A stretch of DNA of 50,081 nucleotides from Beijerinckiaceae bacterium (lineage in GTDB: Bacteria > Pseudomonadota > Alphaproteobacteria > Rhizobiales > Beijerinckiaceae): NCBI GenBank assembly GCA_030684835.1, contig JAUXWZ010000004.1:1-50081 (forward strand), read 5' to 3'. The number at the start of each line of letters is the position of its first letter. Within the stretch, counting starts at the first letter, position 1. This document shows positions 5,282 to 40,016 of the stretch, one piece after another. The position numbers and the translations under genes were made by a program. Below the pieces are notes generated by a model. That model was not told the origin of the DNA and searched no databases. It saw only the letters and a list, made by a program, of their open reading frames with translations.

Positions 5282-6107
5282 GACCGGCCTCCGCTACCTG
5301 GAGATCAAAGCTGATGGCGCCCGATTTGGATCGCTTGGCGCGGATGCCATGCCCGATCGCCTCCTTGGCGTCCTCCGGCATCAGCTTCTTCAGCTCGACT
5401 TTCGCGGCTTCATGATTGAGAAAAGCCCCGCGGGTCTGGCAAAACACCCCGGCCAAATCCGCCCAGGAATTGGAGGACGTCATATCGACGATCCGGACCG
5501 CCTCGATGCGTGGCCTTGGCGTCTCGACTCCGAACAAATGAGGAGGCTCGCCGCTCTCGACGCAGCGCCAGAATTTCTTCTCTGCCGTGAGCAGCAGATG
5601 CTGGTAGAGCGGATCGGCAGGGATCTTCATTTCGACCCACTTGCCGCCGCCGGTGATGATGGAAAGCACCGCAGAGCGCGACTGGATCACCCACATGTTG
5701 TGCTGAAGCTGAGCCATGTGCTTCTCGGCTGCGGCTTCCTCGGAGAACGACCAGGGCAGCATGAATTTGGCTTCGAAGACGGCTCCAGTGCTCTCGACAA
5801 CCCCGTCCAGGGTTGCAGCCATCCATGGGATTACCTGGTGCTGGGCGCGTCTCTGGACATCCTTGATGACATTGCCGCTGTTGAGTTCATACCAGCGCCG
5901 ATTGAGGTCTTCTGTCACCGTCCCAAGCTGGACGATGAGGTTACCCGACAGGTCCTCGGGGATGACCTCGCCACGCTTTTCCCGCCACAGTCGTAGGAGC
6001 GCGCTTTCATCGCTTCCCATGATGACGCGGGCATCGGAGCCACCGATGAAAGAGCGGCGGCCGACTTTCTCCCCATTATTGCCAAGCGGTCGCGGTGCGT
6101 GAGACAT
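5268..6107 (-). CDS. YqaJ-type viral recombinase exonuclease
   Basis: 279 residues, a PD-(D/E)XK nuclease of the lambda-exonuclease/YqaJ family that resects double-strand ends to give single strands for the annealing protein downstream. Seen: G-G-S-D-A near residue 22 (the conserved start of the fold), a catalytic core with T-L-D-G near 98-101 and F-E-A-K-F near 111-115 (the E-x-K), then [10 protein letters not shown] (a Q-x-x-H region typical of YqaJ). ATG 6107 has a good ribosome binding site (AGGAG, seven bases away). It leads the minus-strand operon with the ERF gene. A decayed second copy of its middle part lies at 31562-31830. Confidence 0.85.
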
Positions 6108-6148
6108 TGCAATTCTCCTGAATCGGCGAACGAGGATTTCCTTCGTTC

Positions 6149-6199
6149 GATACTAAAAGTATCAAAAAGAATGGCACCAAAGTCAATACCGAAAGTATC
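6149..6199. promoter_or_regulatory. Paired palindromic operators of the XRE regulator
   Basis: GATACT-AAA-AGTATC is a perfect 15-base palindrome at 6149-6163. A second, imperfect copy, AATACC-GAA-AGTATC, lies at 6185-6199, centre to centre 36 bases away. They sit between the starts of the YqaJ operon (minus, 6107) and the XRE gene (plus, ATG 6171). This is the classic place for an autoregulating repressor of a recombination module. That the XRE protein binds them is inference. Confidence 0.65.
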
Positions 6200-6452
6200 A
6201 ATTCGACAAATAAAGGCCGCGCGAGCTCTTTTGGCTTGGTCGCAGGAGCGACTTGCAGAATCAGCCGATGTCTCGCTCCCGACGATAAAAAGGCTTGAAG
6301 CAAATGATGGCCCACTGGGTGGCCGAAGCGGAACCGGTGCGAAAATTCAATCGACATTGGAGTCGGCCGGCGTCGAGTTTATCGACGAGAACGGCGGCGG
6401 CGCCGGCGTGCGCCTTCGAAAGCCCGAAAAGTTTCGGAAAGGAAAGGATTGA
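6171..6452 (+). CDS. Small XRE-type helix-turn-helix regulator
   Basis: About 93 residues. A Cro/CI-type helix-turn-helix occupies residues 10-45: Q-I-K-A-A-R-A-L-L-A-W-S-Q, then L-A-E-S-A-D-V-S-L-P-T-I-K-R-L-E. The tail V-E-F-I-D-E-N-G-G-G-x-G-V-R-L is a well-kept feature of this small rhizobial regulator family. I choose ATG 6171. A GTG at 6099 would also work but would overlap the divergent gene and add residues not seen in relatives. The gene faces away from the YqaJ-ERF operon with palindromes between them, so it probably represses that operon and itself. The same tail appears as a remnant at 38516-38609. Confidence 0.8.
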   Translation: MAPKSIPKVSIRQIKAARALLAWSQERLAESADVSLPTIKRLEANDGPLGGRSGTGAKIQSTLESAGVEFIDENGGGAGVRLRKPEKFRKGKD

Positions 6453-6645
6453 AAGTTTTCGGCTTTTAGCTCGCTCTTATAGTCAGCTCCGTTGCACCTT
6501 CGACCATCGTGCTGCTCACGTTAAAGATATAGTCCCGTTTTCGATTACGCCTGGGGCCGCAGCGTTGAAGTTGGAACCGTCTGCCGGTCAATTAGCAAAA
6601 TTGAGGTCGCGTGCAGGGCGGCGGTCTCAGGATCAAGCGGCTGAC

Positions 6646-6987
6646 TTACAGCTTTTGATGAGGCAGCGTCTTATATAACTCGATGACACCATCCATGTAG
6701 TTCTTTAGTGGGTTGTCTGCGCAATAACTGCGGATGGTCCCTTTATGGGTGGCCGCTCTGCCTGCTAATTCGCGCGGCGGAAGCTTGCTCGTCAAAACGT
6801 TCATGTTGAGGGCCGACATATATCCTTGAGCCCAGATAAAAAACGAATCCTCAATTCCCGAATTAGCCCGGTACATATTACTAAATTGGGCGCACGTAGT
6901 CGCGCCGGGCCCTTCCACTGGGTTGGCCAATCCAGCGGTATGCGTCACGAGCAAACTCACTGTCATCAAAATTCGAGTGTTCCGCAT
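6646..6987 (-). CDS. Small secreted protein with a conserved Cys pair, 113 aa
   Basis: N-terminal signal peptide (basic start, hydrophobic to about residue 20, ending near L-A-N-P). The mature part has two Cys (near residues 32 and 88), likely a disulfide, with F-I-W-A-Q-G-Y near 50 and Y-C-A-D-N-P-L-K-N-Y-M-D-G-V-I-E-L-Y-K near 88. This layout recalls the Rap1a/Tai- or HdeA-like small periplasmic helical proteins, but I cannot place it firmly. It starts 24 bases after the stop of the ClpP-like gene on the same strand, so they are probably one operon. Confidence 0.65.
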   Translation of the reverse strand: MRNTRILMTVSLLVTHTAGLANPVEGPGATTCAQFSNMYRANSGIEDSFFIWAQGYMSALNMNVLTSKLPPRELAGRAATHKGTIRSYCADNPLKNYMDGVIELYKTLPHQKL

Positions 6988-7011
6988 CGCACGGTCCCTC
7001 GTAACGCGGCT

Positions 7012-7614
7012 TCACTGGTTTTTGTAGTGTTTGATATCCGCCCCCATCAATCGTAGATCATTAAGGCTGAGCCAAGTCATTTCGTTCGGCGGCGTATTTA
7101 CCATGCGGCGGATGATTGACGACGGGACAGTCAATTCTTCCGCAATACGCGCCATCGCCACGGTTCCTTTGCGAGATTCGCTGCCGTCCTCGGAGGCGCC
7201 ATGCACTCCAATACGGGCGTGAACATACGCGAACTTTGCTTCGCCGGCAGCGAAGACGAAAAAGCAGGCAGATGCGCAGGTAGAGTTTTGTCCGACGTTC
7301 GTGGCCAGCTTGGCAGACCTGACGACGGCTGCCAATCGGACACCTTCCAGCAGGTTGCCGCCCTCCGAGTTCAGCCGCACTGAGGTAACCAGTTTACCCG
7401 CGTCTGTCGCCGCCTTGATGCGAGCGGCCACTAAATCGGCGTCACCCGATGCGATCTTGCCGGATATGGAAATTTCGACGCTATCGTCTTTGAGATTGAT
7501 GGACTTTATCTCGGCAGCGGCTGCGATTGATACGCTCAGCGCGAGCCCCGCAGTCACAAGCCCGCAATCCGCAATTCCCCGCCTTTGCCGCTTGCAGAAA
7601 ACAGGGGCGCTCAT
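7012..7614 (-). CDS. Exported ClpP/crotonase-fold protein (putative periplasmic serine protease)
   Basis: 200 residues. An Arg-rich start and hydrophobic segment (residues 19-35, ending A-A-A-A-E) form an N-terminal export signal. The rest follows the ClpP fold: L-N-S-E-G-G-N-L near residue 81 (oxyanion Gly-Gly), T-C-A-S-A-C-F-F-V-F near 112 with a Ser at the nucleophile position flanked by two Cys, and I-G-V-H-G-A near 135 with the catalytic His. This matches a group of periplasmic Clp-like proteins in alphaproteobacteria, whose substrates are unknown. The flanking Cys pair suggests a disulfide next to the nucleophile. The small secreted protein downstream may be a partner. Confidence 0.75.
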   Translation of the reverse strand: MSAPVFCKRQRRGIADCGLVTAGLALSVSIAAAAEIKSINLKDDSVEISISGKIASGDADLVAARIKAATDAGKLVTSVRLNSEGGNLLEGVRLAAVVRSAKLATNVGQNSTCASACFFVFAAGEAKFAYVHARIGVHGASEDGSESRKGTVAMARIAEELTVPSSIIRRMVNTPPNEMTWLSLNDLRLMGADIKHYKNQ

Positions 7615-15503: not shown

Positions 15504-16448
15504 ATGTCGTCGGCTTTGCGACTTTCGATCATTGCGGTTCTTCTTCTTGCAACAACTGCGCTGGGCCTCATTGCCCTGAACCTGAACACGCCCAAGGCTC
15601 CGACCGAGGAGGTTGTTCAACAGGCGCCGGCGCCAAAAGCCGTCGGGTATTATGTCGCGGCGCGGCCGTTACCGAGAGGGACCCTGGCCCGTGACGAAGA
15701 CTTCGTGGTGCGCTCGGCGCAGGCTGATCGCGTTCCGGCGGAAGCAATTCTTGAAACGCTCGACTCCAAAGCCTCATTGTCCGGTTCACTTGTCCGCAAG
15801 TTCGTCGAGGCCGGCAGCCCAATCACTCTGAATGATATCGTGCGGCCTCAGGATCGAGGCTTCCTTGCAAGCGTCTTGGCGCCGGACACCCGTGCCATCA
15901 GCATCAAGGTCGACGAGGAGTCCGGCGTGTCGGGCCTTATTCGGCCGGGCGATCGTGTCGACGTGCTGCTGACGCAGATGTTCGAGAAGGCGGATCCCGG
16001 GCGTCGCGCGCTCAGCGAAACCGTTCTGCGCAACATTCGGATCATCGCCATTGACCAGGAGATCGTGCAGGGCGGCCGGGCTCTCGCTGCAGCGTCGGCC
16101 AAGCAGGCCGCGACCGTCTCGCTGGAACTTTTGCCGGATCAGGTCCAGAGGATCACGGTCGCCAAGCAACTCGGAAAGCTTTCTCTTTCGGTGCGGGCCG
16201 CTCTCATGGACAAACGAGACAATCTCGACGCTCGCGCGATGTCGAGCTGTGATGTGTCGCCCGAACTCGCCCGGCAGAACGCGGCTGCCGGTCAGACTAC
16301 CGCAATCGTTGTGTATTCGGGTGGTGAAGCCAAGCAATTCTCGGTCAAGAAGCAGGTCGCAGACAGCTCAAGTAACTGCGATGCATCGGATGTTGCGCGC
16401 CTGACTGCAGCGGCAGCTGGCGCCGGCAATTTGCCGGAGAAGCGTTGA
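15504..16448 (+). CDS. cpaB: Flp pilus assembly protein CpaB/RcpC
   Basis: 314 residues. An N-terminal membrane anchor (residues 5-27), then an SAF domain (Y-Y-V-A-A-R-P-L-P-R-G-T near residue 50), then the RcpC region (S-I-K-V-D-E-E-S-G-V-S-G-L-I-R-P-G-D-R near 132). Known: CpaB is a periplasmic protein that works with the secretin CpaC. ATG 15504 follows AAAGGA. The stop TGA shares its last base with the ATG of cpaE. The C-terminal 70 residues have two Cys in a region variable in the family. Confidence 0.9.
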   Translation: MSSALRLSIIAVLLLATTALGLIALNLNTPKAPTEEVVQQAPAPKAVGYYVAARPLPRGTLARDEDFVVRSAQADRVPAEAILETLDSKASLSGSLVRKFVEAGSPITLNDIVRPQDRGFLASVLAPDTRAISIKVDEESGVSGLIRPGDRVDVLLTQMFEKADPGRRALSETVLRNIRIIAIDQEIVQGGRALAAASAKQAATVSLELLPDQVQRITVAKQLGKLSLSVRAALMDKRDNLDARAMSSCDVSPELARQNAAAGQTTAIVVYSGGEAKQFSVKKQVADSSSNCDASDVARLTAAAAGAGNLPEKR

Positions 16449-29280: not shown

Positions 29281-30343
29281 ATGAGTACGGATAAACTCCA
29301 GGCGCTGCACAATACTGTTGCGGAAATACTAAGCGAGCCTCCTGCGCCCCCAACTTTCTTTGACGCGGAGCCCTACGACGCAGAGGCAACGTCTCGCGAA
29401 CTTGGGATTTCACCAAAGGCGATACACGAAGCGCACGTCGTCCGCGGCGCCAGGAACGAAATCCCCAGTGTGGCTCGTGAAGCACTCGCTAAACAAACCG
29501 CTGCTGCCCGTTCAGCGAATGCGGGAAATCAACCGCGTTCCAGGCTGTCGCACGAAGCCCCACGCCCCCGGTCGGATCAGGAGACCACGAGCGACACGTT
29601 TCGCCCGGCTGACTCGGGCAACCGGATTTCCCCCGGCAGGTGGGCATTCCGTGGCATCGCAGGCATCCTGCTGGCCGCCAGTATCGGTGCAGCCCTTATC
29701 ACATGGTTGGGGACGTCCGGCGATGCCGCGAAGACGGCTCTGACAGCTCCTCCACAACCCGTGCCGCCGGCCCAGACCGCGCCGCCCGCCGCCGTCCTGA
29801 CGCCCGAGTTGACGCCGTTGCTCCAGTCGATGGCGCGCGATCTTGCAAGCGTGGGAAAAGAGATCGCAGCTCAAGGCCGGTCGCGATCAGATGGCCCGCG
29901 ACAATGCGAACCTCAGCGAGCAGCTCAAGGCCAGCCAGGAGCAATTTGCCCGCGCTGTTGGCCAGCTATCCGAACAACTCAAGATAAGCCAGGAGCAACT
30001 GGTACGCGACAACGCCAACGTGGCCGGACAAATCAAGGGAATCCAGGAACAGTTGACCAGCGTTATTTCCAGGGCTACCGAGCAGAATGCGCCGCCCAGA
30101 ATAACCGCGACTGCACCACGGCCGGCGCCGCCTCCTTTGCAGCGAACAGCAGCTCCCGCGGTGCGCGGGCCGGTGACGATACTCCCGCCGCCACGGGCCA
30201 CAGCCCTGCCGAGAGGCGAAAAGCCAAGAATTACGACCTCACTGCCAGCGTCGCCCACTCGCTGGGGCACTTTCTTCGCGAGCGGTTGGTCCGGTAAAGC
30301 AGCGGACAGCTTAGCTGCGTTGGCCTTCATCAAAGCAGTATAG
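29281..30343 (+). pseudogene. Frameshifted copy of the coiled-coil membrane protein gene at 38952
   Basis: The first part (29281 to about 29867) matches the N-terminal half of the 38952 product: same start M-S-T-D-K-L-Q-A-L, same membrane segment G-I-A-G-I-L-L-A-A-x-I-G-A-A-L-I, same P-E-L-T-P-L-L-Q-S-M-A-R-D-L. Two bases are missing near 29868-29875 compared with the intact copy (GATCGCAGCTC against GATCGAGCATCTC), and the coiled-coil half (S-E-Q-L-K-A-S-Q-E-Q) continues in another frame to 30343. This copy also lacks about 30 codons after residue 32. If read from 29281 alone it would end at 30297 in a scrambled tail. The start codon lies three bases after the ribbon-helix-helix remnant. Confidence 0.8.
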
Positions 30344-31893: not shown

Positions 31894-34800
31894 TTAAAAC
31901 TCGAATCTCGAAAGATACAGGTCAGCCACGTCCGGATTGTTCGGCTGATCGATATCGGTGGGGAATCGAACTGAACCTGCCCTGGTCGAGTAGCTTGAGC
32001 GGCGAGCAAAGGTAACTTCGACAACCTGCGGCACTGGAATGCCCTCCACGACGTCAAATAATGAAAAATTGTTGCCATGGACGTGAACCGGGACATGCGA
32101 CTGGGACAATTTCAACAATACCCGCTCTGCCCGCGCGCACCAAGTTTTACTGCGCATTTCGGACATGCCGTGAAGTTCAACGATGATCTGCACGAACTGC
32201 TTTAGCAGCGGCAGCGAAACCTGATCCAGTATATCCCATTCAGCCCCTTCGATATCCATCTTTAAGATCATTTGGTCTTCTGTTGCGTGACCATTTTCCG
32301 CAATCAAATCCTGGATGGTTTTGATGTTGCCGTGACTTACTGGACCTACTCCAATTGAATAGAAGCGAAAAGAGGGATGCTGCTGGGGTGGCTTTGCCAA
32401 GTTGTGGTCGTATTGATAGACGATCGCACCACGTATGGCCATTTCGTAGTCCCAGCTCGCATCAAGTCCGATTCCAAAAGAGTAGCAGACTCGGGTTCGG
32501 CGCTCCTCGTCAATCAAAACGTAGCCGCCGTCATTTTGACGCCCGATCCTAATCTTGTTTGAGCCGATGACTTCTTGCGGCGTTAGCAAGGACAACACTC
32601 GCCTTATCCGAGCTTGCTGTTCTGCAGGTTCGCCTCCGCCTTGCTCTACTCGCGCCGTATTCACACCCTCGATATCGGGTATATGCGCGACTTGTTTGAG
32701 ATTGCGGCCTTCGTTCGAAGCTTCTTGCAGCTCCGATAGCAACATTGGTAGGGCTTGTTCGTGCCGTGTGCCGATCATGCCTTTCGCATCCGGCGCATCG
32801 ATTGCATTTAAATAGTTTGCGTAGCGATCAAAATGAACCGTAAAGTCCCCGAAACCCCTACATAACGTATAAGCCTTACCACCGTGCGTGGTGTGAACCG
32901 GAAGACGATACTCCAAAAGGAATATCGGCACGCCTACGGAATGGCAAAGGTGAGACATGCCAGAGTCCACGCCGACGAAAAAGGCACTGTTTGCAGCAAT
33001 CTCAACGCATTTCTTTACGCTCAGCGGTTTGCCTAATCGGACCAAGGTAAAGCCAGGGCACATGCGCTCAATGAAAGTCTGTATCATCTGCGCTTCTTCG
33101 GGGCTGGCATTCTTGAGCTCTTTGGCGGATTCACCATCGAACTGAACGGCGACATACTTGTGACGCCGATATGCATGCCATCGAGTTCTTGTAGGAAAAT
33201 AGGACGATTGCCACACGTTGTAAGTATTCAATCGGATTGAAGGCTCTGAGCGGACGAGCTCGATCTGTCCCGGGCTCTCCAGCTCGTTCAAGATGTCGCG
33301 GTGCAAGTCGTGCAAGTCGACATTGTTGATAATCGAGGCTAGGCGTATCCGCTCTTGCGTAACGACCGACATATTCAGGTAGAAGTTGATGGATGCCCAC
33401 TGGTCGCCGAAAGAGTAGTGGTGCGGGCTGTACACACCAGCAGAGTACGGCCACGATTCAGATTGTCCCGCATCATCCGATGCACCAGGGAGGAGGGGAG
33501 ACGATGCTAAGGTATTTTTTGCGCGCTCCTCGTCGATAATGCGCCTGACGCTTTCAGCACCTATCAATTCGGCAAAATGGTTCTCCATGTCTGATGTACT
33601 GAGGCCAAGTTCCGTGAAGCCGACATAATAGTTTCTAACGCGGTCCTCCCACCTGTTAGCGTAAGGGGTGCCTAGTGGCCGCGAGAATCGATGAACCCAG
33701 CGTAGGAAGGGAAGACACAGTGTGCGCCCGCCGCGCTGGCGAATTTTCTCGTGAATGTAGCCCTCTTCGCCGCCAAAGCCGCGAAACGAAGGATTGAAAT
33801 GCGGCCAAGCTTCGCGTCGACAGGCAAACAAACCGAGACCTTGCATCGGAATTGAGAAGGGCGGTGATCCAGGATCATTGCCACGCTCGTCGAACGCCCA
33901 GGTTCCATACATGCCAGCGCGCCAGTTCGGTTCGAAATGCGTTGCTATCGAACGAAGGTCGTCATAGAGCAGCGGCCCCTGCAACAAGTCTCGGCTTCCC
34001 GGAGTTGCGTTGCAATAGTCAAGCAAACGAGCCAGGGCGCCTGGTGCGATAAGGATATGTGCATCGACGCACATTACAATTTCACAACTCGCCTCTTCGA
34101 AGATCGCGTTGCGTATTGCGGTGCCATGCCAGTCACCTCGAGCGACGTAGCGATAACCATCAATCCAGTCCTCGAGCTTTTGTAGCGCCTCCGAGCACGG
34201 TCCTCCGGGATTATTGTCGATTACGATAAATTCGATTGCATTGGCGACTTCGGGATGATGAAAACGAATTGATTGAATGGTAAAATAGACGCCGTCATAT
34301 TCGTCGAAGCTCGCCATTCCGATAGTCAGTCGGCGTGACGCCTGAGTCGTGGGCATCGGTTTGGTGGATGGCATGCTCGGACACTGGGAAGATAATGCGG
34401 AGATGAGACTGTGTTTAGACGCCGAGCGTGCCGTAAACTCGTTACAGAGTTCGACTAAATCGCTAGTGTTCGGCGTCATGGCCAAGAGTTGATGAGTTAT
34501 CACGTCGAGCGTGCCTGAGAGCTGTTCCGTAGCGCCGTAACGCAGAGAAAGCGCTGGAAGCTGTCGAGCCGTCGCCGCAGCCAGCATCAATCCTCCGCTG
34601 GGAAGGTTACGCACATTGACGCAATGTTGTAGAAGCCGAACGCAGGCTTGGGCTGGCGTCAACGCCTCAAGTTGCAGCGGGGAGCCCGCCTGAAACTGGG
34701 GAAATACAATGCAGCCGGCTTCAATTGCCTGGGGCGGCCGCATCTCGTTTGCCGTCAGCAAAATTTCTGCGCCGGCCGCGCCGTGTTTGATCCGCAGCTC

Positions 34801-35331
34801 GTCTGTCGGAACCAGAGCAGATGGAGACGTCGGCTTTAGGAAGAGTGGTCGTGCCAGGGCAGCTACGATCAACGTTCGGGCCGGTGTCGCCGAGACAGAC
34901 ACGAGTTCATCGGTATCGAGGACAAAACCTTGCGCGCGGTACCATAATGCTAGTTGTGTTTTGCCCAAACCGCTGGACCCAGGCAGCAGCACAAAGCGAT
35001 CGCCGACGCGCACGGCAGCTGCGTGCAGGGCAAGTGCATCGTTAAGCTGATCAATCAGTAGAAATGTCACACGCTCGAAAAATGCCGCGAGGGCGCCCGA
35101 CAATTCGAGGCCGATGTCGTCGTGCCCATCACTGGAAATGACCCGAAAATGCTCCGACGATGATCGTTCTTGATAGATTTTGACCCAAGGGCTAGCAAAT
35201 TCACGATTCGTCTTTTCGATGACGCAATAGCGAAACCAGTCGGCAAGCTTTCTCGGGTACAACACAAGCACTTGGCTTGAGCCCAGCGCGATGACGCCGC
35301 GACTAAGTTCACTTGTAAACAAGAAGCCCAT
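31894..35331 (-). CDS. Four-domain fusion: HprK-like kinase, D-x-H glycosyltransferase, GT9-like domain, FkbM-like methyltransferase
   Basis: About 1145 residues in one frame. Residues 1-305: HprK-like kinase, with L-H-A-A-A-V before a P-loop G-S-S-G-L-G-K-T (118-125) and F-V-L-D-T-D-E. Residues 335-585: a GT-A glycosyltransferase starting T-I-G-M-A-S-F, with C-V-D-A-H (D-x-H at 423-425) and G-F-G-G-E-E-G-Y (519-525), a layout like polypeptide GalNAc-transferases. Residues 640-845: a glycosyltransferase-9-like segment with G-V-D-S-G-M-S-H (787-794). Residues 915-1120: a SAM methyltransferase with D-G-G-Y-V (934-938) and K-M-D-I-E-G-A-E-W (1024-1032). The start overlaps the PqqD-like gene by 23 bases; ATG 35331 is preferred to TTG 35349. 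No signal peptide or membrane segment, so cytoplasmic. Individual domains are clear. The joint role, modifying the neighbouring Thr/Pro protein, is inference. Confidence 0.85.
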   Translation of the reverse strand: MGFLFTSELSRGVIALGSSQVLVLYPRKLADWFRYCVIEKTNREFASPWVKIYQERSSSEHFRVISSDGHDDIGLELSGALAAFFERVTFLLIDQLNDALALHAAAVRVGDRFVLLPGSSGLGKTQLALWYRAQGFVLDTDELVSVSATPARTLIVAALARPLFLKPTSPSALVPTDELRIKHGAAGAEILLTANEMRPPQAIEAGCIVFPQFQAGSPLQLEALTPAQACVRLLQHCVNVRNLPSGGLMLAAATARQLPALSLRYGATEQLSGTLDVITHQLLAMTPNTSDLVELCNEFTARSASKHSLISALSSQCPSMPSTKPMPTTQASRRLTIGMASFDEYDGVYFTIQSIRFHHPEVANAIEFIVIDNNPGGPCSEALQKLEDWIDGYRYVARGDWHGTAIRNAIFEEASCEIVMCVDAHILIAPGALARLLDYCNATPGSRDLLQGPLLYDDLRSIATHFEPNWRAGMYGTWAFDERGNDPGSPPFSIPMQGLGLFACRREAWPHFNPSFRGFGGEEGYIHEKIRQRGGRTLCLPFLRWVHRFSRPLGTPYANRWEDRVRNYYVGFTELGLSTSDMENHFAELIGAESVRRIIDEERAKNTLASSPLLPGASDDAGQSESWPYSAGVYSPHHYSFGDQWASINFYLNMSVVTQERIRLASIINNVDLHDLHRDILNELESPGQIELVRSEPSIRLNTYNVWQSSYFPTRTRWHAYRRHKYVAVQFDGESAKELKNASPEEAQMIQTFIERMCPGFTLVRLGKPLSVKKCVEIAANSAFFVGVDSGMSHLCHSVGVPIFLLEYRLPVHTTHGGKAYTLCRGFGDFTVHFDRYANYLNAIDAPDAKGMIGTRHEQALPMLLSELQEASNEGRNLKQVAHIPDIEGVNTARVEQGGGEPAEQQARIRRVLSLLTPQEVIGSNKIRIGRQNDGGYVLIDEERRTRVCYSFGIGLDASWDYEMAIRGAIVYQYDHNLAKPPQQHPSFRFYSIGVGPVSHGNIKTIQDLIAENGHATEDQMILKMDIEGAEWDILDQVSLPLLKQFVQIIVELHGMSEMRSKTWCARAERVLLKLSQSHVPVHVHGNNFSLFDVVEGIPVPQVVEVTFARRSSYSTRAGSVRFPTDIDQPNNPDVADLYLSRFEF

Positions 35332-35587
35332 ACTCCTCAAGCTGCGCAACCACTGTGATCACTTCATCCTCGAGGGTTGGAGGAGCTTCGGGGTATCCGT
35401 CCCGAATCATCTGACAAATTTCACGGGTTGAACGAACGCCATCGCATAACCCTAACACCAACGCGGCGGTCACATTTAGGTAAAACGCCCGCGTTTGCCT
35501 TGGTTGAAACGCAACACATTCTCCCTCAAGTACCTCAAGCGCGAGGCCAGGAGCAGTCATAAGCACACGATCGACTGTGGGTTTCAA
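35309..35587 (-). CDS. PqqD-like peptide chaperone (RRE fold)
   Basis: 92 residues. Features of the family: a start with two strands, F-Y-L-N-V-T-A-A-L-V-L-G-L-C-D-G near residue 34, T-R-E-I-C-Q-M-I near 54, and a C-terminal helix with V-V-A-Q-L-E-E-Y-G-L-L. Known: PqqD-type domains bind the leader of a precursor peptide and present it to modifying enzymes; relatives occur next to HprK-related kinases. Start TTG 35587 is supported by GGAGGG seven bases upstream (ATG 35560 is the alternative). It overlaps the four-domain gene, so the two are coupled. Partner peptide probably the Tat protein encoded just upstream, by position only. Confidence 0.8.
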   Translation of the reverse strand: MKPTVDRVLMTAPGLALEVLEGECVAFQPRQTRAFYLNVTAALVLGLCDGVRSTREICQMIRDGYPEAPPTLEDEVITVVAQLEEYGLLVYK

Positions 35588-35840
35588 AGCGTGACCCTCC
35601 TACCACTCCGAAGATGGCGCCACTGACTCGCGGGATCAAACTCCAAACCACAATCCGCCTAGCGCATGAAGGTGATAGCTCTGCTCCGTCCCCGGCGTGC
35701 TGACGCCGAATTCTTCAGTCGTGACGCCGCCTCGCGAAGTGAATAGCGCCAGCATTGTCGAAAACCTCTTAAACCCAGAGGGCCAGCACTTCCGGACGAG
35801 TCCTGCTTGCCTCGCTTGCCAAGGAAGTGCGCGCCGCCGA

Positions 35841-36230
35841 CTATGGGGGAACCGTCGTCGTCGTCGGAGGCAATGTAGTCGGAGCCAGAGTCGTGGTAGG
35901 GGGCAGCGTCGTCGGGGCCAGAGTCGTGGTGGGGGGCAGCGTCGTCGGGGCCAAAGTCGTGGTGGGGGCCAGCGTTGTTGGGGCCAAGGTCGTTGTGGGA
36001 GCCAAAGTCGTGGTGGCGGGACCAGCGGTCGTGGTCGGCGCAATGGTAGTTGGAGACGATCGTGGCGAGGTCGCGGCATGGGCTGGTACAATGACCATAT
36101 CAACTACCGGTTTCAGCCATCGCTCCGGCAGGAGCGCGATCCCCGCGAGCAGTCCGCCTGCGAGCGCCCCCTTGAGCACACGACGGCGTTCAACCGTCAA
36201 TCGATCAAGATGTTGTCGATTTTCGTCCAT
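35841..36230 (-). CDS. Tat-exported Thr/Pro repeat protein (candidate modification substrate)
   Basis: 129 residues from ATG 36230. Residues 14-20 (E-R-R-R-V-L-K) plus a hydrophobic segment (21-34) form a twin-arginine signal. It is followed by W-L-K-P-V-V-D-M-V-I-V-P-A-H-A, with likely cleavage after A-H-A near residue 52. I recall this W-x-K-P-V-V-x-x-V-x-x-P-A-H-A sequence in other short Tat-type proteins. From there to the end it is almost only Thr, Pro, Leu and Ala in the pattern P-T-T-T-L-A-P-T-T-L-P. Such a mucin-like tail has no enzyme fold but many hydroxyls for O-glycosylation or phosphorylation. It sits upstream of the PqqD and glycosyltransferase/kinase genes on the same strand, 253 bases from PqqD. 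Confidence 0.75.
   Translation of the reverse strand: MDENRQHLDRLTVERRRVLKGALAGGLLAGIALLPERWLKPVVDMVIVPAHAATSPRSSPTTIAPTTTAGPATTTLAPTTTLAPTTLAPTTTLAPTTLPPTTTLAPTTLPPTTTLAPTTLPPTTTTVPP
35875..36006. repeat. 33-bp minisatellite in the Thr/Pro gene
   Basis: Four tandem units of 33 bases (35875, 35908, 35941, 35974), differing at a few third positions, each coding for 11 residues of the Thr/Pro tail. The three outer units are nearly the same. Length change by slippage between strains is likely. Confidence 0.85.
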
Positions 36231-36494
36231 GGCCGGCACCCATGCAATTTCCCCGAAAAGTACCCGACGCCGTCAAGGAACGCAATCGGCTCCGGCGGTT
36301 CCGGCGTAGCCAAGGACCGGTTTGTCATGCATTCGATCAAATCGAGGGTCGGATTGACATTGCCAAAGCCCGTCCTCGGTGTGACATTCATCGGGCGAGG
36401 GCATCGCAAGCCGACCGACCGTCAGACCATAACACGCCGTCGCCTGACCGGGCCTCGTCACCAAATTTGGCGATAGCTGCTTCCGGACACGTCG

Positions 36495-37433
36495 ATGTCA
36501 TTGGTTGACAAGTGGATCGTCTACTGTGCCGACCCTGTCGGCTCGCATACCGTGCCACCTCACGATCTTCCGCCACAACTCGCAGGCCGCTTGGTTGACC
36601 AGGCCGAGTCGCACAGGGTGCTTGGTGCCGTCTTGCAAAATTTTCCAGGTTTCAGGCAGGATGGTCCATTTGCTGCCCACTGGAAGTCTGCCCGTGACCG
36701 GAATCGAGCAAACGTAGCGTTCTCCCTAATGCTTACCCACGAAGCCGATACTTTGGTCGAAAAGCTTGATGGCTTGCGGGCCACGGTAGTGAAGGGTCCG
36801 ACCTTTGCAAAGAAACTTTATCCATCACCCACATTGCGCACCTTTTCAGACATCGACGTTTTAATCGATGTCGACGACCAGGTCGAAGTTGAAAGGATCC
36901 TTAAAGGCCTCGGATATCATTTGGCTGAAGCGAGCCAGCATGAGTTTAAATGGCTGAGTGGTGCAAATGAACAAGTGATGGTCGAAGTGCAAACTGACCT
37001 CGTGCACGCAGAAAGTCTACGCCGAGGCATGTCGTTGTCTTACGGGTCGATCGCTCAATCGCCAGACAGCTCTGCGTCGCTATTAATAATTGCTGTTGTG
37101 CACGGCGCCGGTCATCAATATGAGTACCTTCAGCATCTGGTCGATATCTGTCAGGCAGCAAGGTTTCTGAAGCCAACAGATGAAGCCGAACTTGACCGTT
37201 TACTGGCTGCCACGAACGCGCGATTTGCCACCCTTGTCAGCCTGCTTTTTGCCGGCCGCATATTTGGCGAAGATCGCTGCAACGTCCTGGCGAGAGAGAT
37301 TGGTTCAACGCCTCTTCATAAGCTTGCGGCAAGCCTGTTGGATCAGACGGTCATAATGTCCACGACCGACCAACGGCGGGCGTCTTACAACTGGCGGCGC
37401 CAGGCTTTCAGGTTGCTGCTACGCAATTCATAA
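36495..37433 (+). CDS. Nucleotidyltransferase, NTP_transf_5-like
   Basis: 312 residues. V-V-K-G-P-T-F-A-K-K-L-Y near residue 97, then R-T-F-S-D-I-D-V-L-I near 113, the Ser and paired Asp of a pol-beta-type nucleotidyltransferase, in the form seen in the uncharacterised NTP_transf_5 family. H-G-A-G-H-Q near 205 is a conserved later position. Known: this family often neighbours PqqD- and HprK-like genes in peptide-modification clusters (lasso peptide and similar). Divergent from the Thr/Pro gene, with 264 bases between starts for a shared control region. Followed by galE 67 bases later, likely co-transcribed. Substrate unknown. Confidence 0.75.
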   Translation: MSLVDKWIVYCADPVGSHTVPPHDLPPQLAGRLVDQAESHRVLGAVLQNFPGFRQDGPFAAHWKSARDRNRANVAFSLMLTHEADTLVEKLDGLRATVVKGPTFAKKLYPSPTLRTFSDIDVLIDVDDQVEVERILKGLGYHLAEASQHEFKWLSGANEQVMVEVQTDLVHAESLRRGMSLSYGSIAQSPDSSASLLIIAVVHGAGHQYEYLQHLVDICQAARFLKPTDEAELDRLLAATNARFATLVSLLFAGRIFGEDRCNVLAREIGSTPLHKLAASLLDQTVIMSTTDQRRASYNWRRQAFRLLLRNS

Positions 37434-37500
37434 TATCCCGGGTCCTTATTTGGCGATAAGGAATACGTCGCTTGGTGGACGGTCTGAAACGGGAGCAACA

Positions 37501-38622
37501 ATGAATGTTCTTATTACAGGCGGTGCCGGCTATATTGGGTCGCATACTTGCGTCGAACTCATCCGCGCCGGTCACTCGGCCATCATCCTTGATAATTTCA
37601 GCAGTTCCAAAGATAGCGTTCCAGATCAAATAGCACGAATAACCGGCAAGCATCCAATTGTCGTGAAGGGCGATGTCCGAGACGAAGTCTTGATCCTGTG
37701 GGCGCTAACGTCATATCGCGTCGAGGCTGTTATTCATCTGGCGGGACTTAAGTCCGTTCCAGACTCCATGTTGGACCCCGACAGCTATAAGGATATCAAT
37801 GTTGGTGGCAGCGACGCTTTGCTACGAGCGATGGTGACACGGCAGGTTTATAGGCTGGTTTACGCATCTTCCGCCGCTGTTTATGGGCCACCGCTTTCGT
37901 TGCCGATTAAGGAAGATCATCCTCTCGCACCTCGTAATCCCTATGGACAGAGCAAGCTGTCCGTCGAACGGAAGTTGGAAGAACTATCCGGGCAAGGGTT
38001 GTTCAGAATTGCAATCCTGCGTTTTTTCAATCCGGTTGGAGCCCATCAGAGTGGGTTGATTGGTGACGACCCTTGCGGGATTCCGGGCAACCTGATGCCT
38101 CAGGTGTCGCGGGTCGCGATCGGTCATCTGCCTATTCTGCAAGTATTCGGCAACGATTACGAAACGCTCGATGGAAGCGCTGTCCGGGACTACCTGCATG
38201 TGATGGATTTGGCGATCGCTCAAATTCAAGCGCTCGACGCCCTTGATCGGCAGCGGTGGATCCGGGTCAATTTGGGCACCGGTCGCGGCGTCAGCGTACT
38301 ACAGCTATTGAGAGCGTTCTCCGAGGTATCAGGCAAAAGCATTCCATACGTTTTTGCGCCCCGGCGATTGGGGGATACTGCACAATGCTATGCAAGCGCG
38401 GAGCTCGCGCTAAAGGACCTGCAGTGGCGCGCCGAACGAAGTCTGGAGGAAATGTGCAAGGATACTTGGCACTGGCAGTGCAAGACCTTGAACCAGTACC
38501 AAGATCCCGGGTTGCCTTCGAAAATCCCGGTGTTGAGTTCATCGACGAGAATGGTGGAGGACCAGGGGTCCGCCTCAAAAAATCCAAACGAGAGGCACGG
38601 AAACGGTAAAAAGGTGCCGTGA
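37501..38622 (+). CDS. galE: UDP-glucose 4-epimerase GalE with an aberrant C-terminal extension
   Basis: Interconverts UDP-glucose and UDP-galactose (some members also the N-acetyl forms), giving a sugar donor. Seen: NAD-binding G-G-A-G-Y-I-G-S-H at residues 7-15, S-S-A-A-V-Y-G near 123, the catalytic Y-G-Q-S-K near 148, and L-R-F-F-N-P-V-G near 175. The family end D-T-W-H-W-Q is at about 322. Beyond residue 330 the frame runs about 43 codons into DNA that is the tail of an XRE gene in another frame, so the natural stop seems lost. ATG 37501 has GGGAG close by. Its place next to the glycosyltransferase block suggests it supplies UDP-Gal or UDP-GalNAc. Confidence 0.88.
   Translation: MNVLITGGAGYIGSHTCVELIRAGHSAIILDNFSSSKDSVPDQIARITGKHPIVVKGDVRDEVLILWALTSYRVEAVIHLAGLKSVPDSMLDPDSYKDINVGGSDALLRAMVTRQVYRLVYASSAAVYGPPLSLPIKEDHPLAPRNPYGQSKLSVERKLEELSGQGLFRIAILRFFNPVGAHQSGLIGDDPCGIPGNLMPQVSRVAIGHLPILQVFGNDYETLDGSAVRDYLHVMDLAIAQIQALDALDRQRWIRVNLGTGRGVSVLQLLRAFSEVSGKSIPYVFAPRRLGDTAQCYASAELALKDLQWRAERSLEEMCKDTWHWQCKTLNQYQDPGLPSKIPVLSSSTRMVEDQGSASKNPNERHGNGKKVP
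38516..38609 (+). pseudogene. Remnant of an XRE regulator gene, C-terminal end
   Basis: Frame reading A-F-E-N-P-G-V-E-F-I-D-E-N-G-G-G-P-G-V-R-L, then a Lys/Arg-rich end and stop at 38607-38609. It matches the C-terminus of the intact XRE protein at 6171-6452 (G-V-E-F-I-D-E-N-G-G-G-A-G-V-R-L). The helix-turn-helix part is missing; instead the DNA upstream is galE, which reads through it in a different frame. Orientation is the same as in the intact pair with YqaJ. Confidence 0.8.
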
Positions 38623-38951: not shown

Positions 38952-40016
38952 ATGAGTACAGATAAACTTCAGGCGTTACACAAGACTGTTGCAGATATAC
39001 TGAGCGAGCCTGCGTCGCCCGTAAGTTTCTTTGACGACGAGCCCCACGAAGCAGCGCAGGGCAGGGACCAGGTTGCGAAGGCTTCGGACAGTATTCGGCG
39101 AGGCACCGAAACTCCAAAAGAGAATTTCGGCAAGGCAACGTTTGGCAAACCTGGGATTTCACCAACGGAGATGCGCGAGGCGCACATCGTTCGCGACGCC
39201 AGGAACGAAATTCCCGGCATAGCTCGCCAGGGTCTCGCTGAACAAACCCCTGTTGCGCCGTCAGCTGAGGCAGGAAATCAACCGCGTTCCAGACGGTGGC
39301 GCGAAGCCCCAGGCCCGCGGTCGGATCCGCAGACCACGAGCATCAACACATTTGGCCCGGCTGTCTCGGGCAACCGGATTTCGCGTGGCGGCTGGGCGTT
39401 ACGTGGCATCGCAGGCATCCTGCTGGCGGCTGGTATCGGTGCCGCCCTTATCGCCTGGCTGGGGCCGTCCGGCGATGCGGCGAAGACGGCCCTGGCAGCT
39501 CCTCCACAACCCGCGCCGCCGGCGCCGACCGCCGCCGCCCTGCCGCCCGAGTTGACGCCGTTGCTCCAGTCGATGGCGCGCGATCTTGCAAACATGGGGA
39601 AAGAGATCGAGCATCTCAAGGCCGGTCGCGATCAGATGGCCCGCGACAATGCGAACCTCAGCGAGCAGCTCAAGGCCAGCCAGGAGCAATTTGCCCGCGC
39701 TGTTAGCCAGCTATCCGAACAACTCAAGGCGAGCCAGGAGCAACTGGTACGCGACAACGCCAGCGTGGCCGGGCAAATCAAGGGAATCCAGGAACAGTTG
39801 ACCAGCGTCATTTCCCGGGCTGCCGAGCGGAATGCGCCGCCCAGAATAGCCGCAACCCCGCCAAGGCCGACGCCTCTTTTACTACGGCCGGCGGCTCCTG
39901 CGGTGCGTCAACCGGTGCCGGCACTCTCGTCACCACCGGCCGGAGCCCAGCCGAGGGGCGAGAAACCAAAATTGTCATCGACATCGCGGCCGCCGGCGCC
40001 CGCGCGACAGCCTTAG
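38952..40016 (+). CDS. Membrane-anchored coiled-coil protein
   Basis: 354 residues. A charged N-terminal region of about 145 residues, one membrane helix (about 153-172), a Pro/Ala linker, then a coiled coil from about 205 to 295 with repeated S-E-Q-L-K-A-S-Q-E-Q units, then a Pro-rich tail. Topology suggests a cytoplasmic N-terminus and a periplasmic coiled coil, or the reverse. No enzyme motif. It is the intact version of the frameshifted gene at 29281-30343. It meets the next gene tail to tail with a four-base overlap. Function unknown; the shape would suit a scaffold. Confidence 0.7.
   Translation: MSTDKLQALHKTVADILSEPASPVSFFDDEPHEAAQGRDQVAKASDSIRRGTETPKENFGKATFGKPGISPTEMREAHIVRDARNEIPGIARQGLAEQTPVAPSAEAGNQPRSRRWREAPGPRSDPQTTSINTFGPAVSGNRISRGGWALRGIAGILLAAGIGAALIAWLGPSGDAAKTALAAPPQPAPPAPTAAALPPELTPLLQSMARDLANMGKEIEHLKAGRDQMARDNANLSEQLKASQEQFARAVSQLSEQLKASQEQLVRDNASVAGQIKGIQEQLTSVISRAAERNAPPRIAATPPRPTPLLLRPAAPAVRQPVPALSSPPAGAQPRGEKPKLSSTSRPPAPARQP

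Follow-up and report, generated by a model that had tools for sequence, protein, structure and literature searches.

Cytoplasmic O-glycosylation of Ser/Thr-rich proteins before accessory Sec export is known from the serine-rich repeat proteins, whose glycosylation uses SecA2/SecY2 and GtfA/B. Among ribosomally synthesized and post-translationally modified peptides (RiPPs), the linear polyphosphorylated peptides (LPP) have a core of a RiPP recognition element (RRE), an HprK-like kinase and an NTP transferase (PMC13381572, Nat Commun 2026; statements on all papers cited here refer to the excerpts of their text that were available). The LPP kinase LppK phosphorylates Ser3 of a core that begins AQSNWK and did not accept S3T, and LppN was silent in its test (PMC13381572). 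Lasso-peptide recognition elements bind [Y/W]xxPx[L/V/I/F/A], with the register W-15, P-12, L-10 in PbaA and Y-16, P-13, V-11 in LppA (PMC13381572). In pseudomycoidin, the nucleotidyltransferase PsmN is reported to put hexoses on phosphoserine, and it may be a true nucleotidyltransferase (PMC9266682). Fusions of an RRE to a glycosyltransferase (GT) are also in print (RRE-Finder, PMC7470986; PMC12710340), and a 2025 paper names PF00535. Here we describe a locus of a Beijerinckiaceae bacterium that encodes a protein with a twin-arginine translocation (Tat) signal, a discrete PqqD-like RRE and a fusion of an HprK-like kinase to a GT, a combination of which we recognised no description in the open-access literature searched. 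It lies on a 50,081-bp stretch of DNA, the whole of which is hereafter called the window (assembly GCA_030684835.1, contig JAUXWZ010000004.1, positions 1-50,081).

The nearest relatives of this cassette are the LPP RiPPs. Both have a discrete RRE, an HprK-like kinase (fused here) and an NTP transferase (likened to LppN by description), a conserved leader with [Y/W]xxPxV ahead of a variable core with Ser at position +3, and leader removal by a signal-peptidase-type enzyme, which is described for LPP and predicted for the cassette. In the cassette, however, the motif is embedded in a Tat signal peptide and has W where LPP has Y, the kinase is fused to a GT resembling N-acetylgalactosamine (GalNAc) transferases, and the proposed substrates are Thr/Pro-rich; LPP are mainly from Bacillota according to the excerpts, whereas the cassette leaders are from Proteobacteria and Desulfobulbia. 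The sequence-only reading of the window knew of no described system with this set, which holds for the Tat protein and this GT, neither of which belongs to LPP, but not for the RRE, HprK and NTP-transferase core. The paeninodin and pseudomycoidin lasso peptides share the HprK-like kinase and the nucleotidyltransferase (PMC9266682), and PbaA has its WxxPxL leader at the register of the cassette leaders (PMC13381572); the lasso kinase, however, acts on a C-terminal Ser (PMC9266682), and the cassette has no protease or cyclase found at its locus and a long, secreted substrate. The joining of RRE to GT is shared with the published fusions, to which the excerpts assign no Tat precursor, HprK fusion or substrate. 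Where the serine-rich repeat proteins use Sec, the cassette would use Tat and an RRE-guided GT. It is thus like LPP and paeninodin RiPPs in leader reading and phosphorylation and like family GT27 in fold, and falls within the full definition of neither. We read the locus as a RiPP-like modification cassette acting on a Tat-exported, mucin-like Thr/Pro protein, with a probability of about 0.68. Its features are:

31894-35349, minus strand: multidomain fusion gene, TTG start, 1151 aa
31894-35331, minus strand: fusion gene from the likelier ATG start, 1145 aa, beginning MGFLFTSELS...
34420-35127, minus strand: HprK-like kinase domain with H109, K130 and D147 (residues 75-310 of 1151, approximately)
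33514-34344, minus strand: GT-A domain, residues 336-612 of 1151, with D429-x-H431, E528-E529 and H553
32680-33432, minus strand: GT9-like module scoring under the Pfam cut-off (residues 640-890, approximately)
31897-32652, minus strand: FkbM/Methyltransf_22-like module, about residues 900-1151, below cut-offs
35309-35587, minus strand: PqqD-like discrete RRE, 92 aa, its 3' end overlapping the fusion gene
35841-36239, minus strand: Tat-signal Thr/Pro protein, proposed substrate, 132 aa, above the TIGR01409 cut-off
36075-36239, minus strand: Tat leader, residues 1-55, ending PAHA at a predicted signal-peptidase site judged by motif
36102-36119, minus strand: W41-L-K-P44-V-V46, matching the RRE-recognition motif [Y/W]xxPx[LVIFA], with W at -15 from the predicted cleavage
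36066-36068, minus strand: Ser58 (mature +3), proposed HprK phosphorylation site by likeness to LPP Ser3
36495-37433, plus strand: NTP_transf_5 nucleotidyltransferase, divergent, by profile match
37450-38622, plus strand: GalE-type UDP-glucose 4-epimerase, ATG at 37501, galE profile above cut-off

From 84,980 species genomes scanned, 116 relatives were confirmed. The best 80, chosen by GT, were analysed together with the window and a copy of its locus (L001), using our own hidden Markov models built from the window genes in three rounds and run on mechanically called open reading frames (ORFs). The GT is present in all 82 entries by construction, because they were chosen by it; PqqD was found in 53, HprK in 49 and NTP_transf_5 in 30, and 36 entries have Tat-leader proteins, 51 ORFs in all. 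L001 is left out of all association counts that follow. The neighbourhood of PqqD, HprK-GT fusion, NTP_transf_5 and Tat protein picked out in the sequence-only reading recurs: within 5 kb of the 40 HprK-GT fusions there are 23 with PqqD, 22 with a leader protein and 20 with NTP_transf_5, and the 30 fusions with at least 3 kb on both flanks have 18, 19 and 17, respectively. The 50 leader ORFs lie at a median of 202.5 bp from the GT ORF, 42 of them on its strand. Tat genes occur in tandem in L004, L014 and L018 (three copies each) and L006 (four), and the gene order in L002 and L003 is Tat gene(s), NTP_transf_5, PqqD, fusion. Besides the window, the leader entries comprise, going by their record titles, 14 Alphaproteobacteria, 11 Gammaproteobacteria, six Desulfobulbia, one Desulfobacteria and two Deltaproteobacteria.

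The window Tat protein has a mature part of 77 residues with 33 Thr and 18 Pro, this Thr/Pro-rich part being encoded by a 33-bp tandem repeat. It has the features of a Tat substrate (RR motif, hydrophobic stretch, A-H-A site), scores 18.9 bits with TAT_signal_seq (NCBI, TIGR01409; cut-off 16.7) and is predicted to be exported; TatC is encoded in the same genome. In an alignment whose rows cover 37 of the 50 leader ORFs, both Arg, Trp27, Pro30 and Ala41 are invariant and P-A-H nearly so. WxxPx[V/I/A] stands at a fixed place in all 50 profile-found leaders, a count that is partly circular because the profile contains the motif; in a check free of this circularity, 5 of 115 other RR N-termini have it. 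The Trp is at -15 from the predicted cleavage in 48 of the 50 and at -16 in two, and the leader register W-15/P-12/V-10 equals the W-15/P-12/L-10 of PbaA. One of the five other RR N-termini belongs to L072 (Saprospiraceae), the one convincing case from a search for small ORFs with RR and a WxxP-like motif near loci without a found leader: a Tat-type Thr-rich protein, missed by the leader profile, 12 bp upstream of a PqqD-GT fusion.

Of the 50 proteins, 36 have Ser at mature position +3, 11 have Thr and three have another residue; Ser makes up 9.7% and Thr 27% of the rest of the mature regions. By analogy with LPP Ser3, mature Ser+3 is the likely phosphate site, so that the phosphate proposed on the Thr/Pro protein by the sequence-only reading gains a candidate residue, the modification itself remaining conjectural. 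Raw identities of leaders and mature regions across 46 proteins are equal (0.446 and 0.445) and do not uphold a greater variability of the mature regions, but shuffled controls of 0.219 and 0.399 indicate that the mature identity is mostly composition.

Used as a genome profile, the leader was scored on the best 28 (order), 17 (phylum) and 20 (a 341-genome family) candidates per genome, and weak or crowded-out copies may be missed in these surveys. Strong matches were obtained in 1 of 398 phylum genomes (the bacterium's own), two of the 249 genomes of the order, each of which carries the fusion, 1 of 8 genomes of one family (G212) and 3 of 341 of another. The surveys overlap and amount to five genomes: G000 and G212 carry the fusion, and the Tat proteins of G663, G722 and G924, which have ten leader places, are identical to those of L002, L003 and L005. 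The other five phylum matches scored 21-24 bits, three ending before the Trp and none with WxxPx[V/I/A]; a third order match (G114) was marginal and without the motif. The fusion occurs in seven genomes of the order, five of them without a leader match. Among 5.8 billion proteins, a leader search by a method that needs shared 5-residue words found four matches from 34 candidates. The lone outlier of the ten places, in the L003 genome (L107:1489-1935, plus strand), encodes a protein in which this leader is followed by a Thr/Pro linker and a Peptidase_S74 chaperone domain, and no core cassette gene was found on the 19 kb fetched around it. In L034 (2-907, plus strand), a single frame that reaches the contig end comprises an NTP_transf_5 part, a Tat leader and Thr/Pro repeats, and is either a real fusion or the result of a deletion.

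The D-x-H domain is polypeptide GalNAc-transferase-like by its modelled fold, which bears out the likeness proposed from sequence. A model of the domain, for which 76 of the 82 selected sequences were used, had a mean predicted local distance difference test score (pLDDT) of 95.9. Foldseek returned 470 PDB matches at E <= 0.001, and all 50 that were listed are GalNAc-transferases (top match E 1.3e-13, TMq 0.75). D429, H431 and H553 are kept in 40 of 40 HprK-GT fusions; D-x-D replaces D-x-H in 8 of 90 GT ORFs, seven of which lack H553. The change to D-x-H is confined to GT27 and GT60, and the C-terminal His of GT27 is a metal ligand (PMC7185993). With GT27 the domain would share the GT-A fold, D-x-H, the C-terminal His and an expected Thr/Pro-rich acceptor, but it has no significant GalNAc-transferase sequence match in the PDB, is assigned to Glycos_transf_2 by Pfam, has no lectin domain by Pfam in the fusion, and is bacterial and fused to a kinase.

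The full HprK triad is intact in 22 of the 40 fusions, and its integrity tracks PqqD: the entries of triad-intact fusions contain PqqD in 22 of 22 and NTP_transf_5 in 19 of 22 cases, those of the other 18 in two and one. Among fusions with good flanks, PqqD lies within 8 kb in 18/18 versus 1/12 (p 2.2e-7); the counts are 16/18 versus 1/12 for NTP_transf_5 (p 1.5e-5) and, for PqqD after thinning to <80% identity 17/17 versus 1/9 (p 5.8e-6). HprK, PqqD and NTP_transf_5 are thus co-retained. On the GT tree the triad-intact label needs 11 changes, a number as low in 58 of 500 shuffles, and is not clearly clustered.

In the mechanism that we propose, the PqqD-like RRE would bind W-x-x-P-x-V in the Tat signal peptide, as suggested by motif and register, and hold the precursor at the fusion, whose HprK domain would phosphorylate mature Ser+3 as in LPP. 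NTP_transf_5 may then add a nucleotidyl group or sugar to this phosphate, by comparison with PsmN. The GalNAc-transferase-like GT-A domain would, judging by its fold, set O-linked sugars on Thr of the tail, which the co-fused GT9-like and FkbM-like modules (elsewhere GT25, LicD or sulfotransferase) could extend or methylate. The modified protein would be exported by Tat and cut after A-H-A by signal peptidase. Gene association, conservation of leader motif, register and Ser/Thr at +3, GT fold likeness and co-retention are computed results; we infer binding, phosphorylation, glycosylation and export, and likewise the order of these steps. Whether the cassette defines a class of RRE-guided secreted phosphoglycoproteins, in which the Tat signal peptide doubles as RiPP leader and the kinase-GT fusion equips the protein in the cytoplasm, ahead of Tat export, with a phospho-sugar on Ser+3 and a coat of mucin-type O-glycans on the Thr/Pro tail, we consider evenly balanced. 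If so, Alpha- and Gammaproteobacteria, Desulfobulbia and, with L072, probably Bacteroidota would have a mucin pathway that follows RiPP logic. It would link RiPP leader recognition, Tat export (with a second readable function of the signal peptide) and mucin-type O-glycosylation. HprK-related kinases would gain a definite substrate together with its binding motif and the residue that is modified, and NTP_transf_5 enzymes, described by Pfam as uncharacterised nucleotidyltransferases, a set of partners. The cassette would also offer a bacterial route, defined by its genes, to Thr/Pro proteins with dense glycosylation.

Several observations weigh against the cassette reading. Weightiest are two: distances between leaders follow those between GTs once PqqD is accounted for (partial r 0.44, p 0.0005) but not those between PqqD proteins once the GT is accounted for (partial r 0.14, p 0.11), and 5 of 35 leader entries have no detected PqqD (L021, L024, L027, L071, L073) while keeping the motif, the contig of L021 ending just after the fusion. 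Coevolution therefore does not single out PqqD and was rejected as proof of its binding the leader; the sequence-only proposal that PqqD presents the Tat protein gains a recognition motif embedded in the leader but no matching divergence. The triad is incomplete in 18 of 40 fusions, and the tree-aware test of its co-retention is too small, with only two well-supported independent pairs. Thr occupies +3 in 11 of 50 proteins, five of them in triad-intact entries, though LppK refuses S3T. Pfam TAT_signal gives the window protein 14.0 against a cut-off of 22.7, and of ten related Tat proteins three pass the NCBI Tat-signal cut-off and none that of Pfam. Run against the PDB, a sequence profile of the GT matched TarP at E 5.7e-5 and chondroitin synthase at E 7e-4, with GalNAc-T7 (E 0.88) as the sole GalNAc-transferase, and the poor full-fusion model (pLDDT 63.8) gave a mixed PDB list with dolichyl-phosphate mannose synthase, GtrB and TarP above the first GalNAc-transferase. 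Nine of the 30 well-flanked fusions are without leader, PqqD and NTP_transf_5.

Both weightiest points would be expected if the GT itself read the leader and glycosylated the tail, with PqqD, HprK and NTP_transf_5 a separable, often-lost add-on for the N-terminus or another target; the tendency of triad, PqqD and NTP_transf_5 to go missing together fits this as well. We nevertheless regard this explanation as unlikely, although the best of the alternatives, since the leader has an RRE motif at the lasso register, PqqD is fused to GT in 16 ORFs by our own profile (11 of these with a leader protein within 5 kb; Pfam at E 0.001 finds PqqD in 10 of 56 fusion ORFs), and L039 and L080 have PqqD on enzymes with GT32-type and PIG-L-like domains.

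The modules fused to the GT vary. Among 56 HprK-GT or PqqD-GT ORFs (Pfam, E 0.001), GT25 occurs in 13, and the LicD, sulfotransferase, DUF6065, GT9 and FkbM-like models in one each. Ten other homologues combine the same GT variously with LicD (two), GT25 (five), PqqD (two), GT10, FemAB or another methyltransferase by Pfam. Other fusions thus bear GT25, LicD, sulfotransferase or extra GT2 domains in place of the GT9-like and FkbM-like modules, which are found within this fusion in the closest relatives only; the FkbM-like part alone has matches in three other genomes. GT9, GT25, LicD, GT10 and sulfotransferase modules are typical of lipopolysaccharide and capsule loci. They would suit a fusion whose product is a surface polysaccharide or whose target is a lipid or small molecule, with the Tat protein as a separate passenger, as would the nine well-flanked fusions without leader, PqqD and NTP_transf_5. 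This is improbable, as leader proteins adjoin the GT and are tandemly repeated in several entries, strong leader matches elsewhere in the surveyed genomes are few, and PqqD-like domains bind peptides (on RREs, see PMC13381572). Most improbable of all is a lasso-peptide or LPP cluster whose precursor is unusual: the locus has the RRE motif and register, HprK and NTP transferase of such clusters, and contig C166 of the genome carries another PqqD next to a Transglut_core3 match, but this is the genome's only such match and none lies at the locus, and 12 chosen window ORFs (26.9-41.7 kb) scanned with Pfam include no SpI-like peptidase or MsbA-like/ATP-binding cassette exporter, which the Tat signal replaces, and no Asn-synthetase-like cyclase (sought in these ORFs only).

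Regarding the fusion at the centre of the preferred cassette reading, ORFs and profiles confirm the single frame of up to 1,151 aa with HprK-like, D-x-H GT-A, GT9-like and FkbM-like segments, its overlap with the PqqD-like gene, and the nearby Tat Thr/Pro protein, divergent NTP_transf_5 and GalE, as the sequence-only reading had them. Translation probably starts at the ATG at 35331 rather than the TTG at 35349. A chance frame, or the assembly join which that reading had foreseen as a refutation, is ruled out by near-full-length relatives: a search with 8,000 scored candidates gave 43 homologues including the window's own protein, four of which (P0002-P0005) have 99-100% query coverage and 55-57% identity on separate contigs. 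The fusion matches Glycos_transf_2 (E 5.3e-7, over cut-off), Hpr_kinase_C (E 5.7e-4, under cut-off) and HprK_rel_A (E 4.7e-16, 58.7 bits; NCBI cut-off 200). With a second score of 21.8 against 35, the locus stays under the NCBI cut-offs of the HPr-rel-A system (TIGR04352/TIGR04353), as do the relatives' proteins tried (five HprK, three PqqD). The HprK domain matches PDB HprK by profile, and its triad H109, K130, D147 is intact. 'GT9' and 'FkbM' are likeness labels, because Glyco_transf_9 (E 0.0014), Methyltransf_22/21 (E 1.1e-4/4e-4) and fkbM_fam (26.2 bits), the latter three on the C-terminal part, are all under curated cut-offs. The PqqD-like protein matches PF05402 (E 4.9e-13), its nearest PDB entry being PqqD 5sxy (E 0.015), with TfuB1 at E 0.52, and the NTP_transf_5 protein (E 5.3e-29) is the sole PF14907 match in the genome.

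GalE was rejected as a core gene. Of the 39 other HprK-GT fusions, only three (L004, L005, L036) have a GalE-like ORF in their entries; L037 has one too, and in L041 and L066 the GT carries an epimerase-like part. GalE is possibly a sugar-nucleotide supply in the window but no conserved part of the cassette; of the overall interpretation made from sequence, the association and the GT likeness are supported, PqqD as presenter gains a motif and the phosphate a likely site, whereas GalE as general supplier is not supported. A 39-aa ORF (about 35636-35755, minus strand) was set aside as extra precursor by inspection; in L002 its place between Tat gene and PqqD is filled by the NTP_transf_5 gene.

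Further PqqD-containing loci were noted. In L039 (11521-13668) and L080 (13028-15139), PqqD is fused to PIG-L-like (below cut-off) and GT32-type domains, a hint of further RRE-guided glycan enzymes. Next to the cassette of L006 lies the gene of an AraC-type regulator whose C-terminal domain is PqqD (6034-7509, minus strand). In a Gemmatimonadetes record, a 53-aa ORF containing ERRGLLKKAWVAPLAV lies close to PqqD and HprK (L065:7871-8032, minus strand) and may be a short precursor of the same logic. The second PqqD of the window's genome, beside Transglut_core3 (the lasso B2 protease) on C166 at about 15684-16201 (L110, L113), looks like part of a separate lasso-peptide cluster. DUF6065 (E 1.5e-86) is fused ahead of HprK-GT in L008 (9116-11719), a functional hint for this domain. 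A plasmid search at E 1e-30 gave no match. Direct repeats with pieces of 81-91% identity, about 9.75 kb apart (window 29384-30129 and 39133-39874), lie in two paralogous unnamed ORFs, one on either side of the whole cassette, and therefore suggest its duplication or insertion as an island.

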